From contig CAIVEW010000073.1 in NCBI GenBank assembly GCA_903905065.1, positions 1 through 64,000 on the forward strand: 64,000 bases of DNA, given 5' to 3'. The notes under the pieces are model-generated. The model was not told the origin of the DNA, searched no databases, and was given only the letters and a program-made list of their open reading frames with translations. The translations under genes were made by a program, and so were the position numbers. Origin of the DNA: an uncultured Bacteroidota bacterium. GTDB lineage: Bacteria; Bacteroidota; Bacteroidia; Chitinophagales; Chitinophagaceae. Shown here piece by piece: positions 50,240 through 55,566 of this stretch (its first letter is position 1; each line of letters begins with the position of its first letter).

Positions 50240-52075
50240 TTACTTTACCTGCTGCATTTCTACCAGGCGCTTGTAGATACCGTCTTTGCTCAGCAGTCCG
50301 CTATGTGTGCCGCGCTCCGCTATCCTGCCGCGTTCCAGCACTATTATTTCGTCGGCATGCTGCACGGTAGACAGGCGGTGGGCAATGACGATGCAGGTAC
50401 GGTTCTTCATTAGATTGTTGATGGCGTCTTGTACCAGGCGTTCGCTTTCCGTATCGAGTGAAGAGGTAGCCTCATCAAGAATAAGTATAGGAGGATTTTT
50501 TAGTACAGCTCGCGCAATAGTTACGCGCTGGCGTTCGCCACCGCTGAGCCTTGCGCCGCGATCGCCGGCAACTGTTTGGTATCCATCGGCCTTCTGCCTG
50601 ATGAAATTATCGGCATTGGCAATGCGTGCGGCTTCTTCCACACGCTCCTGCGTGGCGCCACCAGTACCAAGACTGATGTTGTTATAAATAGTGTCGTTAA
50701 AGAGTATCGGGTCCTGGCTCACCACACCCATCAGGCGGCGTAAGTCGTCCAGTTTGCAATCTTTAATGTTAATACCGTCAATGATTATCTCGCCCCCTGA
50801 AACATCATGGAACCGGGGAATAAGATCGACCAATGTAGATTTACCGGCTCCCGAAGCACCCACCAGTGCGACGGTCTTGCCTTTTTCTATTTCCAGGTCT
50901 ATGCCCTCGAGTATTTGTTTTTCTCCGTAGGCAAAGCTCACATTTTGGAATACTATACTTTTTGAAAAAGCAGCGATCGGCCGGGCATCCGGGCGTTCCG
51001 TTATGGTGTTTTCAGCACCAAGCAGATGTTCGATGCGATCGAGTGCCGATGTGCCCTTCTGCACATTGTAAAAAGCCGAAGAAAGATTTTTGAAGGGGGT
51101 AATGATCTGGCTGAAAAGGCCAATGTATGCGATAAACGTGGCTGCGCTGAAACCATTATTCGCAAACACCATTTTACCGCCTATCCATAAGATAATGCTT
51201 ACTACTACTATTCCCATTGTTTCAGACATAGGTGAAGCCAGTTCACGGCGGGCAGCGATGCGGTTTCGCGTTCTGAATAATAGATTGTTCAACTTCATGA
51301 AACGTAGATGCTGGTGGTTCTCCGCATTAAACGCTTTCAGTACCCGCATACCAACCAAAGTCTCGTCTATAACCCCTAGCATGCCGCCCAATTGTTCCTG
51401 CGCCATATTTGATGATTTGCGCAGCGATTTACTGATGCGGCCTATTATTAGGCCGGCAACCGGTAGCCCTACCAACAGTACTAATGTTAGCTGGTAGCTC
51501 ATCACGATCATAGTGCCCAGGAAGATAATGATGGTAAGCGGCTCCCGGATAAAAACCTCAAGGACCGCCATAATAGAGAGCTCCACTTCATTGATATCAT
51601 TGGTCATGCGCGATATCAGGTCCCCTTTTCTTTCCTCTGTGAAAAACCCAATAGGTAATGACAACGTCTTTGTAAAAAGGTCGTCTCTCAGCCTTCTGAG
51701 CACGGCATTGCGCAGCGGGTTGAGCACATATAAAGCAAGATAAAGAAATAGATTTTTAAGTACTGTGAAAATGACCACTATAAAGCATATATAAGCCAAT
51801 GTGGTGAGCTTATCGTGATTCAGCAACAAGCTATTAAAATATTCCTTAGCATGGTCGATCTGCTGAGCAAAGAAGCCGGTAGGTAAACCCTTATTAACAG
51901 GCGCTGATGAGCTTGAGGAACTTATAGGGTTATTAAAGAGTACATTGAGTACCGGGATGATCAGTGTAAACGAGAACAGGCCAAATAAAATGCTCAACAG
52001 GTTAAAAAGAAAGTAGAGCCCTATCTTCCCTTTATAATCAGCGAGGTAATTTAACAGCCTTGATATTTTCTTCAT
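50240..52075 (-). CDS. ABC exporter, MsbA/lipid-type fusion
   Basis: A 611-residue half-transporter with six N-terminal helices (about 1-330) and an ATPase domain (about 360-605). Walker A LVGASGAGKSTLVDLIPRF, Q-loop VVSQDPILFNDT, signature RLSGGERQRVTIARAVL, Walker B ILILDEATSSLD and switch His in VIAHRLSTV are intact. The closest group is MsbA-like lipid and drug exporters. It begins 8 nt after cysS, so the two share an mRNA behind the poly-Cys leader. Export of a cysteine-related compound would fit that context but the sequence does not show it. Confidence 0.92.
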   Translation of the reverse strand: MKKISRLLNYLADYKGKIGLYFLFNLLSILFGLFSFTLIIPVLNVLFNNPISSSSSSAPVNKGLPTGFFAQQIDHAKEYFNSLLLNHDKLTTLAYICFIVVIFTVLKNLFLYLALYVLNPLRNAVLRRLRDDLFTKTLSLPIGFFTEERKGDLISRMTNDINEVELSIMAVLEVFIREPLTIIIFLGTMIVMSYQLTLVLLVGLPVAGLIIGRISKSLRKSSNMAQEQLGGMLGVIDETLVGMRVLKAFNAENHQHLRFMKLNNLLFRTRNRIAARRELASPMSETMGIVVVSIILWIGGKMVFANNGFSAATFIAYIGLFSQIITPFKNLSSAFYNVQKGTSALDRIEHLLGAENTITERPDARPIAAFSKSIVFQNVSFAYGEKQILEGIDLEIEKGKTVALVGASGAGKSTLVDLIPRFHDVSGGEIIIDGINIKDCKLDDLRRLMGVVSQDPILFNDTIYNNISLGTGGATQERVEEAARIANADNFIRQKADGYQTVAGDRGARLSGGERQRVTIARAVLKNPPILILDEATSSLDTESERLVQDAINNLMKNRTCIVIAHRLSTVQHADEIIVLERGRIAERGTHSGLLSKDGIYKRLVEMQQVK

Positions 52076-52083
52076 GATTTTTT

Positions 52084-53577
52084 TTATTCCATTGTGTAAC
52101 TCACGCTTCCATCCTTCTCATCCTTCAGTATAACGCCTGCTGACAGCAGTTTATTTCTTATCTCATCAGATGTCGCGAAATCTTTTCTCTTTTTCGCGTC
52201 TTTCCTGATATCGATGAGTACCGACAAGATACCGTCCAGCTTGTTGCTTTGTTCCGCCTGCAGCGGTTGCAGGCCAAGAATATCCTCAATGTAAACTTTG
52301 AAAGAATCCTTTAACAAGGCAAAAGTCGCGGCTGAAAGCGCACCGGCAGCTACCTGCCCACCCTTCATGCCGTTGATCACCGGTGCCAGCTCAAACATAT
52401 TAGCAATAACCTTTGCGGTATTGAAGTCATCATTCATGAAGTCTGCAAATTCATTGCACCAGTCTGTTACTTGTTTATCCAGTGCCGCATCTTTTGCTTC
52501 CGCATTTCCGGGATGGCTAAGTTTTTGCAACACCTCATAAGCTTCCCATAACCGGCGCAGTGCCCGCTCAGAGCCCTGCAGGGCCTCATTGCCAAAATCA
52601 AGTGTGCTGCGGTAATGCGTCTGCAGGATATAAAAGCGCACCACCATGGGGTGATAAGCTTGCTCCAATAACGGATGGTTGCCGCTGAACAGTTCAGATA
52701 GCTTGATCACGTTGTTATAGCTCTTACCCATCTTCTTGCCGTTGATGGTGATCATATTGTTGTGCATCCAGTAGCGCACCGGCGGGTGGCCGTGAGCTAT
52801 GGTGCTTTGAGCGATCTCGCTCTCGTGGTGCGGAAACTGGAGATCCATACCGCCGCCATGTATATCAAAAGTTTCGCCGAGGTACTTGCTGCTCATCGCA
52901 GAGCACTCTATATGCCAGCCGGGAAAACCTTCGCCCCATGGGCTTATCCATCGCTGTATATGCTCAGGCGGCGCACTCTTCCATAGTGCGAAATCCACCT
53001 TGTTGCGTTTTTCATCCTGTCCATCCAGCTCTCGGGTGGTTTCCAGTTGGTCTTCCAGTATCCTGCCAGATAGTTTTCCATAAGGGTAGTGCTCCGCGTA
53101 TTTTTTTACATCAAAATAAACTGAGCCATTCACTTCATAAGCATAGCCTTTTGCGATGATGGCCTCTATCATGGTGATCTGCTCTATGATGTGGCCTGTG
53201 GCAGTAGGCTCAATGGCGGGTTCATCGCAATTGAACAGGCGCATGGCGTGGTGAAAGAGGGAAGTGTATTTATGCACCATCTCCATCGGCTCCAGCTTTT
53301 CCAGTTTCGCCTTTTCGCCAACTTTATCTATTGCTTCGCGCCCTTCTTCTTCAAAATGGCCGGCGTCAGTAATGTTTCGAACATAGCGCACTTTATATCC
53401 CAGGTGTTTCAGGTAGCGCTGCACTATGTCGAACGTAACATAAGGACGTGCATGCCCCAGGTGCGACTCACCCGAAACTGTTGGACCGCACACATAGAGG
53501 CCGGCATAGCCGGGGGTAATAGATTCAAACTTTTCTTTCTGCCTCGTATATGAGTTATAAAAATGGAGTTCAGACAT
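52084..53577 (-). CDS. cysS: cysteinyl-tRNA synthetase
   Basis: A 497-residue class I synthetase that charges tRNA-Cys. Zinc and substrate ligands are Cys30 (LYVCGPTV), the Cys in WHIECSAMS and His residues in FPHHE. The HIGH motif is HLGH (39-42) and the KMSKS loop is KKMGKSYNN. The family's C-terminal anticodon-binding part is complete. Upstream lies a 26-codon leader with five Cys codons; downstream the ABC exporter follows after 8 nt. Confidence 0.97.
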
Positions 53578-53585
53578 AAGTATTT

Positions 53586-53618
53586 AAAATTCAAAAGTTA
53601 AAAGTAAAAATTCAAAAA
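53586..53618. repeat. A-rich 12-mer AAAATTCAAAAG, second site
   Basis: AAAATTCAAAAG at 53586 and AAAATTCAAAAA at 53607, the same sequence as the tandem repeat after priA (8733-8758). It fills the space between the poly-Cys leader and cysS. Confidence 0.55.
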
Positions 53619-53655
53619 GAAGTACCAACAAAAAAAGAAGAAACAGGAGCAGGCA

Positions 53656-53736
53656 TTAACGGCAACAACAGCAGCAACGGCTTCCATATCCGGCTGCAAG
53701 TGTGAGGAAATTCGGTGTTATTGCTGTGTTGGTCAT
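53656..53736 (-). CDS. candidate poly-cysteine leader peptide of cysS
   Basis: A 26-codon frame starting MTNTAITPNF and ending Gly-Ser-Arg-Cys-Cys-Cys-Cys-Cys-Arg. The Cys codons are TGC TGC TGT TGT TGC. It begins 15 nt after a perfect TAnnTTTG element and ends 78 nt before cysS, with no gene between. Poly-Cys leaders are known in mycobacteria to sense cysteine supply. Translating five Cys codons would stall when Cys-tRNA is scarce. GCAGC at 53693-53697 can pair with GCTGC at 53671-53675 inside the Cys codons, so stalling could change folding. No intrinsic terminator was found after it, so control would more likely be by translation coupling. Confidence 0.6.
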   Translation of the reverse strand: MTNTAITPNFLTLAAGYGSRCCCCCR

Positions 53737-53751
53737 ATACTATTGTTACAA

Positions 53752-53759
53752 CAAATGTA
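53752..53759 (-). promoter_or_regulatory. -7 promoter element of the leader-cysS operon
   Basis: Minus-strand TACATTTG, exact TAnnTTTG match, 15 nt before the leader ATG. It makes the leader the first frame on the cysS mRNA. Confidence 0.55.
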
Positions 53760-53791: not shown

Positions 53792-54703
53792 TTACTCTTT
53801 CCCGGCCCGCATCAAGGTATCTTTCTCTTCCGCAGACAATGAGTTGTAGCCTTTCTGGTTTATTTTGTCAAGAATATCGTCTATGCGTTTTTGCGAGATA
53901 CCGTGTTTTGGCTCGTACATTTTGTCGAGAATCTGGCTACGGTTTTTGTTGTGCCTTTTCCAGGCGGCGTTTTCATCAGGTGTTACCAGGCCTTCTATTT
54001 TACCGGTGAGCTGGTACATCCATTCGCCCGGCCTGTAGCCCGCTTTCAATAATTTAACGTAGCCAAAACCCATAAGCCCGCCGCCGATCAGCATGAAGAT
54101 AACGGGAAGGTAAAAACCGGATCCGATGATCATGAGCACGGCGAACACGCCTGCCACAACGAGTATCGGAATGCTGAATGTTTCAGTGAGGTAGAAGCGA
54201 TATTGAGGGGTAAGTGTCACTGCGGCAGCGGCCAACCCAATGAGCCCGGCACGTGGTCCTAACAAGCCTATCGTATGCGGCGTTTTGCCCAGCTCGCCCG
54301 GTAGTACCTGGGAAAGCAGGTAAAATATACCGCCTACGAGCAGGCAATAGAGATATAGCGGTATTACCTGTTTTGATCCTACCAGCATTTGAACAACCGA
54401 GCCAAACCAGTACAGCCAGAACATATTGCTCACCAGTTCCCAGAAGCCGGGCAGGTTATAAAACCAGCCATAGGTAAGTAAGGTCCACCAGTGACTCTTA
54501 ATGCCAGACAATGTGGGCAGCGCGAGATTAGGCAGAAAATACTGCTCATATATCGGCATCCCCTGGTATACCAGCATGATCACTGCCCAGGTAAGTGCCA
54601 GGATGACATACAAGACCGCCGAAAAAATGATCAGTTTTAATACTGCGTTATTTGTCAACCCCGGTATATAAGATAGTGCCGATCTTTTGCGCCCTGTGCT
54701 CAT
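53792..54703 (-). CDS. rhomboid-like pseudoprotease
   Basis: A 303-residue membrane protein with about six helices, related to the rhomboid next door by its ELVSNMFWLYWFGSVVQMLVG block. The active-site GxSG is replaced by GPRAG (LLGPRAGLIGL), so the nucleophilic Ser is missing and the protein should be proteolytically dead. The C-terminal cytoplasmic part (about 225-303) contains ISQKRIDDILDKINQKGYNS and LSAEEKDTLMRAG, a domain common after Bacteroidota rhomboids (DUF6576-like). It starts 14 nt after the active rhomboid, suggesting joint action, for example as a regulatory partner. Confidence 0.82.
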   Translation of the reverse strand: MSTGRKRSALSYIPGLTNNAVLKLIIFSAVLYVILALTWAVIMLVYQGMPIYEQYFLPNLALPTLSGIKSHWWTLLTYGWFYNLPGFWELVSNMFWLYWFGSVVQMLVGSKQVIPLYLYCLLVGGIFYLLSQVLPGELGKTPHTIGLLGPRAGLIGLAAAAVTLTPQYRFYLTETFSIPILVVAGVFAVLMIIGSGFYLPVIFMLIGGGLMGFGYVKLLKAGYRPGEWMYQLTGKIEGLVTPDENAAWKRHNKNRSQILDKMYEPKHGISQKRIDDILDKINQKGYNSLSAEEKDTLMRAGKE

Positions 54704-54717
54704 CTCAATAAAGATAT

Positions 54718-55566
54718 TTAATAAAAATTGTTCCTCACCCTGCTCTTCCAGATCCTTAACAATATGAACGCAAAGAGCGCACCGCCGAGGTGGGCAAAAT
54801 GGGCAATATTATCGCCGGCGGAATTAGCCAGCCCTTCCGTCAACTCAATTAAAATATAACCGCCAACCACCCATTTGGCCTTAATCGGTATCGGGATAAA
54901 GTAAATGTACAATTCGGTATTGGGGAATAAGTATCCAAAAGCGAACAAGAGCCCAAATACAGCGCCGGATGCACCAAGGGTGGCCTCGTTCATGTGTGTT
55001 TTCAAAAGGGCTATGGATTCACTCGCAAATTTTACGGAATCCGGTTGCATTTGCCACTGGTCAAGGAATAAACCTGCACCAGCGCGGCTTATATCAATGG
55101 GGTAGATATTTGCTATTCGAATAAAATCATTAATATTCGGATGCTGCTGGTATTGAATAAGCGCCTGATGGAATGGCGCGAACTCATAAGTGAGCACTCC
55201 AAGGTGACAAAACGCAGCGCCAATACCGCAGACAAAGTAAAAGATAATGAACCGTTGCGGCCCCCAGAAATTTTCCAGTATACGGCCGAACATCCAGAGC
55301 GCGAACATATTGAAAAATATATGGGACACGCTGCCATGCATGAACATATGTGTAACTATCTGCCACCACCGGAATTTAGGAGATTCCCAGTAATGGAGCG
55401 CAAATACGTCTTCAAAAGAAATTCCGTTGCCCTGTAAGTCCTGGCCAAGCATCAGGCCCCTTGACTGGAACAACATCTGTACGAGGAAAACAAGAACATT
55501 AATGATAAGCAGGTTTCTTACCACTATCGGTAATTGCTGAAATCCGCCGGTCCGAAAATTTGACAT
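54718..55566 (-). CDS. rhomboid intramembrane serine protease
   Basis: A 282-residue rhomboid with the catalytic Ser200 in GASGAVFG and His in NIAHFAHLGGA (256/259); THMFMHGSVSHIFFNMFALW is the conserved His/Asn helix. An insertion of about 80 residues (110-190) lies between the early helices and the Ser helix. It cleaves membrane-anchored proteins within the bilayer. It is followed by a catalytically dead paralogue. The TAnnTTTG element ends 4 nt before its ATG. Confidence 0.92.
   Translation of the reverse strand: MSNFRTGGFQQLPIVVRNLLIINVLVFLVQMLFQSRGLMLGQDLQGNGISFEDVFALHYWESPKFRWWQIVTHMFMHGSVSHIFFNMFALWMFGRILENFWGPQRFIIFYFVCGIGAAFCHLGVLTYEFAPFHQALIQYQQHPNINDFIRIANIYPIDISRAGAGLFLDQWQMQPDSVKFASESIALLKTHMNEATLGASGAVFGLLFAFGYLFPNTELYIYFIPIPIKAKWVVGGYILIELTEGLANSAGDNIAHFAHLGGALFAFILLRIWKSRVRNNFY

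Follow-up and report, generated by a model that had tools for sequence, protein, structure and literature searches.

The window analysed here, a stretch of 64,000 nucleotides, contains on its minus strand a frame of 26 codons plus TAA (53736-53656; MTNTAITPNFLTLAAGYGSRCCCCCR*), which lies ahead of cysS and carries a run of five Cys codons, three TGC and two TGT (Table 1). The identity of cysS is supported by the NCBIfam model TIGR00435 (437.7 bits against a cut-off of 340). The ABC exporter downstream of it scores 506.9 bits with the MsbA model, under the cut-off of 602, and likewise stays under the cut-offs of the other MsbA models. Bacteroidota use a promoter type of their own. Its -7 element spans positions -12 to -5 according to the accessible text of PMC9723704 and PMC6847099, and the copy ahead of the frame, termed P1, predicts from its motif a transcription start at about 53747, some 11 nt ahead of the leader ATG. 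The frame, its five Cys codons, the exact TAnnTTTG and the distances of 15 nt (element to ATG), 78 nt (leader stop to the cysS ATG) and 8 nt (cysS to exporter) had been listed in an earlier note, and all were confirmed in the sequence. The same note had counted the exporter as part of the operon: it does follow cysS closely, but it is codirectional with cysS at the same locus in only 17 of 30 genus loci, several of which stop early at contig ends, and we therefore take it as a passenger, probably cotranscribed with cysS yet outside the sensor. Two neighbouring rhomboid-family genes lie directly upstream of the leader; of 30 genus loci, which are of limited length, 13 keep the first of them in the same direction.

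Table 1. Features of the cysS leader region (positions in the window)
Feature	Position	Strand	Remarks
Leader ORF, MTNTAITPNFLTLAAGYGSRCCCCCR*	53656..53736	-	26 codons; position and Cys run kept among relatives
Five Cys codons in tandem, TGC TGC TGT TGT TGC	53662..53676	-	proposed control codons
P1, TACATTTG, exact TAnnTTTG (-7 element)	53752..53759	-	15 nt ahead of leader ATG
Spacer from leader stop to cysS	53578..53655	-	pyrimidine-rich, G-poor; no terminator-like site found
Stem 5' arm, GCAGC	53693..53697	-	pairs with GCTGC at 53671..53675
Stem 3' arm, GCTGC	53671..53675	-	pairs with GCAGC at 53697-53693
Possible degenerate P2 remnant, GAATTTTTAC	53604..53613	-	by eye; P2 of relatives is TTATTTTT[G/A]C
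cysS, cysteine--tRNA ligase	52084..53577	-	497 aa; ATG at 53577
MsbA-like ABC exporter	50240..52075	-	starts 8 nt past cysS end
First rhomboid-like gene	53792..54703	-	upstream of leader; DUF6576 tail
Second rhomboid-family gene	54718..55566	-	

The claim that this frame is an amino-acid-sensing leader of cysS had been made together with the proposal to compare the same region in related genomes, and the comparison supports it at the level of sequence: in Chitinophagaceae relatives this place is likewise taken by short ORFs that hold a Cys run, with TGT and TGC exchanged synonymously within otherwise diverged peptides. Of 60 relatives, 57 yielded a cysS gene. Our genus sample comprised 35 genomes, 32 of them with a readable region upstream of cysS (G005, G023 and G025, with an incomplete cysS start, were dropped), and the strict definition of a leader was a sense ORF no longer than 45 codons whose last eight codons include at least three Cys. 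Such a leader precedes cysS in 17 of the 32 genomes on the sense strand and in none of the 32 on the antisense strand, and 200 dinucleotide-shuffled genus sets averaged 0.175 and never exceeded two. Because the window genome (G000) and G001 are nearly identical, 16 of 31 is the fairer count; some tallies omit a near-duplicate (L003) and a locus on a split contig (L005, in place of which L100 was used). The earlier note had regarded relatives without any Cys-rich frame as evidence against its claim; as a caveat, 15 of the 32 genomes lack the strict form. Shorter endings, R-C-C and R-C-C-H, are present in two further genus loci (L015, L016). In a cysS tree of 30 rows, with low support on 14 of 27 inner branches (drawn open), leader bearers make up 14 of the 20 rows of one half, and the other half of ten holds two bearers, three short forms and five rows without a leader.

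Within the genus the peptide drifts while the Cys run stays, as seen in MTNTAITPNFLTLAAGYGSRCCCCCR, MTRTAIAPKFFTPAAGYRIRYCCCCR and MHSSIHISTGLNRQTFTESIIQHNGCCCCCCY, and part of the genus additionally keeps the residues FAE..IQHxG. A leader-profile search of the 35 genus genomes (E up to 1) returned 13 matches with E <1e-7, all of them upstream of cysS. Of the weaker matches, four were considered as second copies: G016:C29 marks where cysS begins in a split gene, G001:C184 sits where a contig ends, and two others, L101 and L102, were dismissed on inspection. The contig end in G001 (L112) holds a second, diverged leader-like frame, MRQTANTPNFFTSVAGYQARYCCC*, in a genome with 6% contamination, and this frame perhaps belongs to another strain instead of marking a duplication.

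The arrangement extends beyond the genus. Among 123 further Chitinophagaceae genomes from 66 surveyed genera (rows L318, L319 and L339, in which the cysS start was not found, were dropped), the strict leader occurs in 30 on the sense strand and in one on the antisense strand, and about three quarters of this family sample are without the strict form. We accepted 29 of the 30 (L252 was excluded), which are spread over 19 of the 66 genera, and 28 (L252 and L260 omitted) make up the detailed family set. These 28 leaders are 11-19 codons long with the start chosen, and across genera their peptides look unrelated save for the Cys run (MKNLVHTCCCFCCC, MIVFNTYCCCCCC, MARYSIYTCCCCCC, MNTAIYHTCCCCC). 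The genus peptide sequence itself does not reach other genera, but the position, the Cys run and the promoter do; a genus-peptide profile run against 244 family genomes gave ten matches outside the genus (E 5e-4 to 0.01), which were rejected as lying in other frames or away from cysS starts.

Two counts that do not use the strict definition gave a similar picture. Runs of at least four TGY codons, taken without any ORF definition, number 26 on the sense strand and none on the antisense strand of 154 regions (31 genus and 123 family); a stop follows within three codons in 24 of the 26 (p 2.8e-19), and every one of the 26 has an ATG in the same frame. Selecting ORFs solely by a TAnnTTYG before the ATG yielded 37 in the family, 28 of which have at least three Cys, with none on the antisense strand, and 11 in the genus, eight with at least three Cys, against a single, Cys-free ORF in antisense. 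This promoter-based search adds forms with a short tail after the Cys codons that the strict count misses (L284, L293, L305, L313). At 79 cysS loci of named genomes we obtained seven sense matches against one antisense match; of the former, L157 is the same locus as L021, and L204 and L217 resemble background. The Chitinophagaceae-like loci with a Cys run before cysS among the named genomes are L161, L162 (Segetibacter aerophilus), L165 and L212; the frame at L162, from the cultured strain NBRC 106135, has six Cys but no clear promoter element. In 22 genomes of the order outside the family, no run of at least four TGY lies within 450 nt of cysS, and one run of three reads into cysS; Cys-rich stop-to-stop tails at three order-level loci (L067, L070, L076) were rejected, as the other marks of a leader are missing there. 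All conservation and promoter statistics given here ignore phylogeny, and the carriers are therefore not independent.

The choice of codons and of the gene is specific as well. Over 18 genus leaders, TGT outnumbers TGC by 60 to 19, whereas window ORFs of at least 200 aa have 62 TGT and 127 TGC (p 1e-10), and the preference for TGT also holds against the other T/C-ending codons of the same leaders (55 to 50; p 0.001). The window copy goes against this preference, as TGC leads in its run. In carrier genomes, a Cys leader was found at none of the 30 cysteine-synthase-type genes examined (of 40 matched), at none of 20 hisS and at none of 20 pheS genes.

The promoter element keeps its place, too. 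The 60-nt stretches ahead of 46 leader ATGs together contain 41 matches to TAnnTTYG, 38 of which lie at -26 to -11 (24 of 27 for exact TTTG). At this distance the element is present in 14 of 18 genus leaders (13 exact) and in 24 of 28 family leaders (11 exact), a family count that includes the TTCG variant, admitted after inspection, and some leaders for which the ATG nearest P1 was taken instead of the first ATG. The narrower placement at -15 to -12 is found in 22 of 28 family leaders (11 exact) and in 4 of 18 genus leaders (3 exact); it corresponds to a motif-predicted 5' UTR of about 0-3 nt, compared with about 11 nt for the window leader, and most family leaders are thus predicted to be leaderless or nearly so. 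In Flavobacterium psychrophilum, leaderless mRNAs are a minority of 5.5%, as stated in the accessible part of PMC9723704.

Computation directly shows the ORF, where it lies, that it is conserved beyond background, which promoter element precedes it and that the other tested genes lack it. Position, promoter and gene specificity, together with the identity of the codons and their proximity to the stop, lead us to the reading that this frame is probably a cis-acting leader peptide gene, which couples cysS to the available Cys-tRNA(Cys) by ribosome-mediated attenuation. The transcript would begin at P1, just ahead of the leader ATG, and the ribosome would read a series of variable codons (5-14 in family leaders, roughly 17-30 in the genus) before it enters the Cys run at or near the stop. 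With ample Cys-tRNA, it would reach the stop and depart, and most P1 transcripts would give no CysRS. With charged tRNA(Cys) scarce, the ribosome would wait on the Cys codons, the RNA around and after the run would fold or be exposed differently, and more cysS would be made. The output could be transcription termination, intrinsic or Rho-dependent, or cysS translation. That cysS should rise when Cys-tRNA is low is suggested by the logic of the arrangement and by known analogues; one hairpin subtype, described below, would fit the opposite sign.

Cys-containing upstream ORFs of copper genes are associated with metal or redox sensing, and the leader might similarly be translated into a Cys-rich nascent peptide that itself is the signal, in place of tRNA charging. 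The location of the Cys residues at or near the C-terminal end and the additional FAE..IQHxG residues kept in part of the genus would suit such a sensor. We nevertheless consider it unlikely: the peptides outside the genus look unrelated across genera save for the Cys run, the length and the interruptions of this run vary, the rarer Cys codon is favoured, the controlled gene encodes the very enzyme that charges tRNA(Cys), and the cysteine-synthase-type genes examined in carriers are without a leader.

In many relatives, carriers included, a second promoter-like element (P2) sits between the leader and cysS, so that not all cysS mRNA need include the leader. The leader could then be a separate short transcript or a small-protein gene that ends before P2, with cysS driven by P2 alone and no functional link between the two. 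In line with this idea, 13 of 18 genus carriers have TATTTTTA (9 of 18) or TATTTTTG (4 of 18) no more than 80 nt from cysS, and 15 of 28 family carriers have an exact TAnnTTTG in the interval from leader to cysS. However, the exact P2 is more often missing in carriers. In the genus it is present in 5 of 18 carriers against 11 of 13 non-carriers (p 0.003), or 10 of 13 if equal stretches of 70 nt are compared (p 0.011); in the family it is present in 15 of 28 against 71 of 89 at unequal lengths (p 0.013), and in 8 of 28 against 58 of 89 at equal 50-nt stretches, with p values of 0.0009, 0.013 and 0.020 at 50, 60 and 70 nt. An exact TAnnTTTG in the spacer ahead of cysS is missing from the window genome (G000), as it is from L002, L011, L307, L315, L320, L323, L326, L328, L341 and L350, and P1 is left as the evident promoter there. 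The leader moreover goes with cysS, whereas none of the other tested genes has one, and independence of the two appears improbable to us. The exact P2 is rarer in carriers as though P1 takes over, and the difference in the P2 box, which in genus non-carriers is TATTTTTG in 8 of 13 and TATTTTTA in 1 of 13, suggests a trade between the two promoters. A structured stretch is present downstream of P2 in the cysS 5' UTR of L020, L012, L009 and other genus loci (mean z -1.32 at stop+70, the lowest among the offsets tested; 11 of 16 below -1); possibly P2 transcripts have here a feature of their own.

For a leader that senses Cys-tRNA, an RNA structure that changes with the position of the ribosome would be expected, and here the window and the family differ. 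The earlier note had drawn a GCAGC/GCTGC stem over the first Cys codons; this stem can be drawn, but it is not unusual, as the window leader RNA folds no better than its shuffles (z 0.11), and stems over the Cys codons have no common register among the genomes viewed by eye. The window spacer contains 0 terminator-like sites, and with the z score of 0.11 attenuation by an intrinsic terminator is unsupported in the window; by eye, neither a regular nor a conserved terminator was seen in relatives. Long-range pairing between the leader and the cysS start appeared inconsistent by eye in a few genomes and was dropped. A hairpin that joins the ORF end to the sequence after the stop was evaluated against shuffles of the downstream part. 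It gave a combined p of 3e-7 in the family (11 of 28 with p <0.1), a weak signal in the genus (combined p 0.008; 5 of 18 with p <0.1) and p 0.49 for the window copy, and shifting the family test by +35 or -45 nt gave p 1.0 and 0.56. By eye, the last Cys codons of family leaders tend to pair just past the stop, with the stop in the loop, as in GCTGC-TAG-GCAGC (L359) and GTTGC-TAAG-GCAAC (L335). In a second subtype the hairpin lies inside the ORF end (L284, TCCCG..CGGGA; L313, TCCTG..CAGGA; L299, TCCTGT..ACAGGA), where one paired change was seen by eye; this subtype predicts the opposite sign of the response, because a ribosome passing the Cys codons would melt the hairpin.

The spacers of family carriers are furthermore C-rich and G-poor, with 463 C to 240 G, whereas non-carriers have 1355 to 1017 over their last 70 nt (p 2e-5; p 3e-5 with carriers fully removed from the control, and 7e-4 for equal last 70 nt), a control in which some stretches overlap upstream genes. 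Rho was matched in 17 of 18 genomes asked. The sole genome without a match at E 1e-60, G137, is 100% complete by table and carries a cysS leader (L285). These observations are compatible with Rho-dependent attenuation, although they are not evidence for it. Rfam models, the T-box included, have no match in the window, and the only match at 20 carrier loci with E up to 1 was mir-241 at 0.91, with no T-box. The stop hairpin thus supports a step of RNA structure in the family and the C-rich spacer allows Rho, while the window copy shows neither clearly.

The leader might also lower or couple cysS translation constitutively, through reinitiation or spacing, with the Cys run as a brake that senses nothing. 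The finding of no conserved terminator would fit this, as would the statement in the accessible text of PMC6847099 that Bacteroidota are without Shine-Dalgarno sequences. Such a generic brake would, however, need no Cys ahead of cysS, and the identity of the codons is kept while the length and the other codons drift, which makes this explanation very unlikely.

According to the earlier note, five Cys codons in a row are improbable by chance. This applies to the run that follows an ATG in its own frame and meets a stop within three codons, a combination that occurs once in the window and once across all 200 dinucleotide shuffles together, but not to the bare run: (TGY)5 occurs a single time in the window, yet it has 19 matches in the window genome (overlaps counted) against 2 for the reversed pattern, and the weight of the evidence therefore lies on position and conservation and not on the run alone. 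TGY runs are frequent in the genus, with 3 to 15 matches to TGYx4-TRR (which admits TGG too) in each of the 35 genomes, but the notion that the leader is a chance or low-complexity (CAR/CAA repeat) artefact is hardly credible, as it is already contradicted by the genus, family, run-based and promoter-based counts, with Cys runs in 26 of 154 sense and 0 of 154 antisense regions, a near-universal stop and in-frame ATG at the runs, and the spacing of the promoter.

If the frame does sense Cys-tRNA, the Chitinophagaceae could possess a family-wide class of cysS attenuators with nearly leaderless mRNA, whose RNA switch has the Cys codons as one of its arms and the stop in its loop. Sensor, timer and switch would then fit into about 60 nt without a dedicated terminator or a Shine-Dalgarno block, the peptide would turn over fast around a fixed Cys run, and a constitutive internal promoter would have been traded for a leader-bearing one. 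We put this wider picture forward tentatively, as a possibility that is rather doubtful in its entirety. A conserved Cys leader that is easy to recognise at a synthetase gene would offer a compact natural reporter of Cys-tRNA for Bacteroidota.

To our knowledge, amino-acid sensing at aminoacyl-tRNA synthetase genes has been little explored in Bacteroidota. In Escherichia coli, the pheST operon encodes an aminoacyl-tRNA synthetase and has a leader in which the cognate amino acid abounds, and the control codons of the trp leader pair with RNA just past the leader stop (1:2 pairing). The cysS leader shares with pheST the combination of a synthetase gene and a cognate-residue leader, although the amino acid differs, and the stop hairpin of the family resembles the 1:2 pairing of trp. 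Unlike both, it has another promoter type, and a regular terminator/antiterminator pair was not found. No terminator hairpin with U-run, the mark of the classical class, was found in the window, and none of regular form was seen by eye in relatives. As the window has 0 terminator sites, we do not file the cysS leader among classical intrinsic-terminator attenuators, but it may work like one.

Within the phylum, PMC9723704 describes strong clues to leader peptides upstream of amino-acid biosynthesis operons and structured 5' UTRs at aminoacyl-tRNA synthetases in Flavobacterium psychrophilum; its accessible text mentions neither cysS nor a Cys run. A Cys leader of cysS as such is already known from Rhodobacterales, where uORFC-8-2, a short ORF with Cys codons upstream of cysS, is read as ribosome-mediated attenuation in the accessible text of PMC8632094. 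For Bacteroidota, our literature search, with most subscription papers outside its reach, recognised no description of a cysS leader. Both systems share the short Cys-codon ORF ahead of cysS. According to the same source, the alphaproteobacterial uORFC-8-2 carries a tandem pair of Cys codons, in most cases codons 14-15, and forms two prominent stems and an intrinsic terminator with a 3' U-run; in the window we found no such set of two stems, Cys codons in the first and a U-run terminator. In the Chitinophagaceae the stop usually coincides with or closely follows 3-6 Cys codons, a regular U-run terminator is missing, an internal promoter element is often present, and most family carriers have a predicted nearly leaderless start.

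For mycobacteria and other Actinobacteria, poly-Cys leaders without terminators were predicted before cys operons (PMC1262725, in its accessible part). Cys-responsive attenuation has been reported in M. smegmatis (Canestrari et al. 2020, as cited in PMC9031893 and PMC13236596), and control of mycobacterial cys operons by translation attenuation is described in the accessible text of PMC13236596. A Cys run near the stop and the lack of a conserved terminator are common to both, and the actinobacterial leaders are leaderless where those of most family carriers are predicted to be nearly so; this is a likeness by description and not by sequence. The mycobacterial leaders belong to another phylum and serve cysteine biosynthesis operons, in contrast to the leader described here, which is found at cysS and at 0 of 30 cysteine-synthase-type genes. 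It would represent a third solution to the sensing of Cys supply, after cysS of the Rhodobacterales and the cys operons of mycobacteria.
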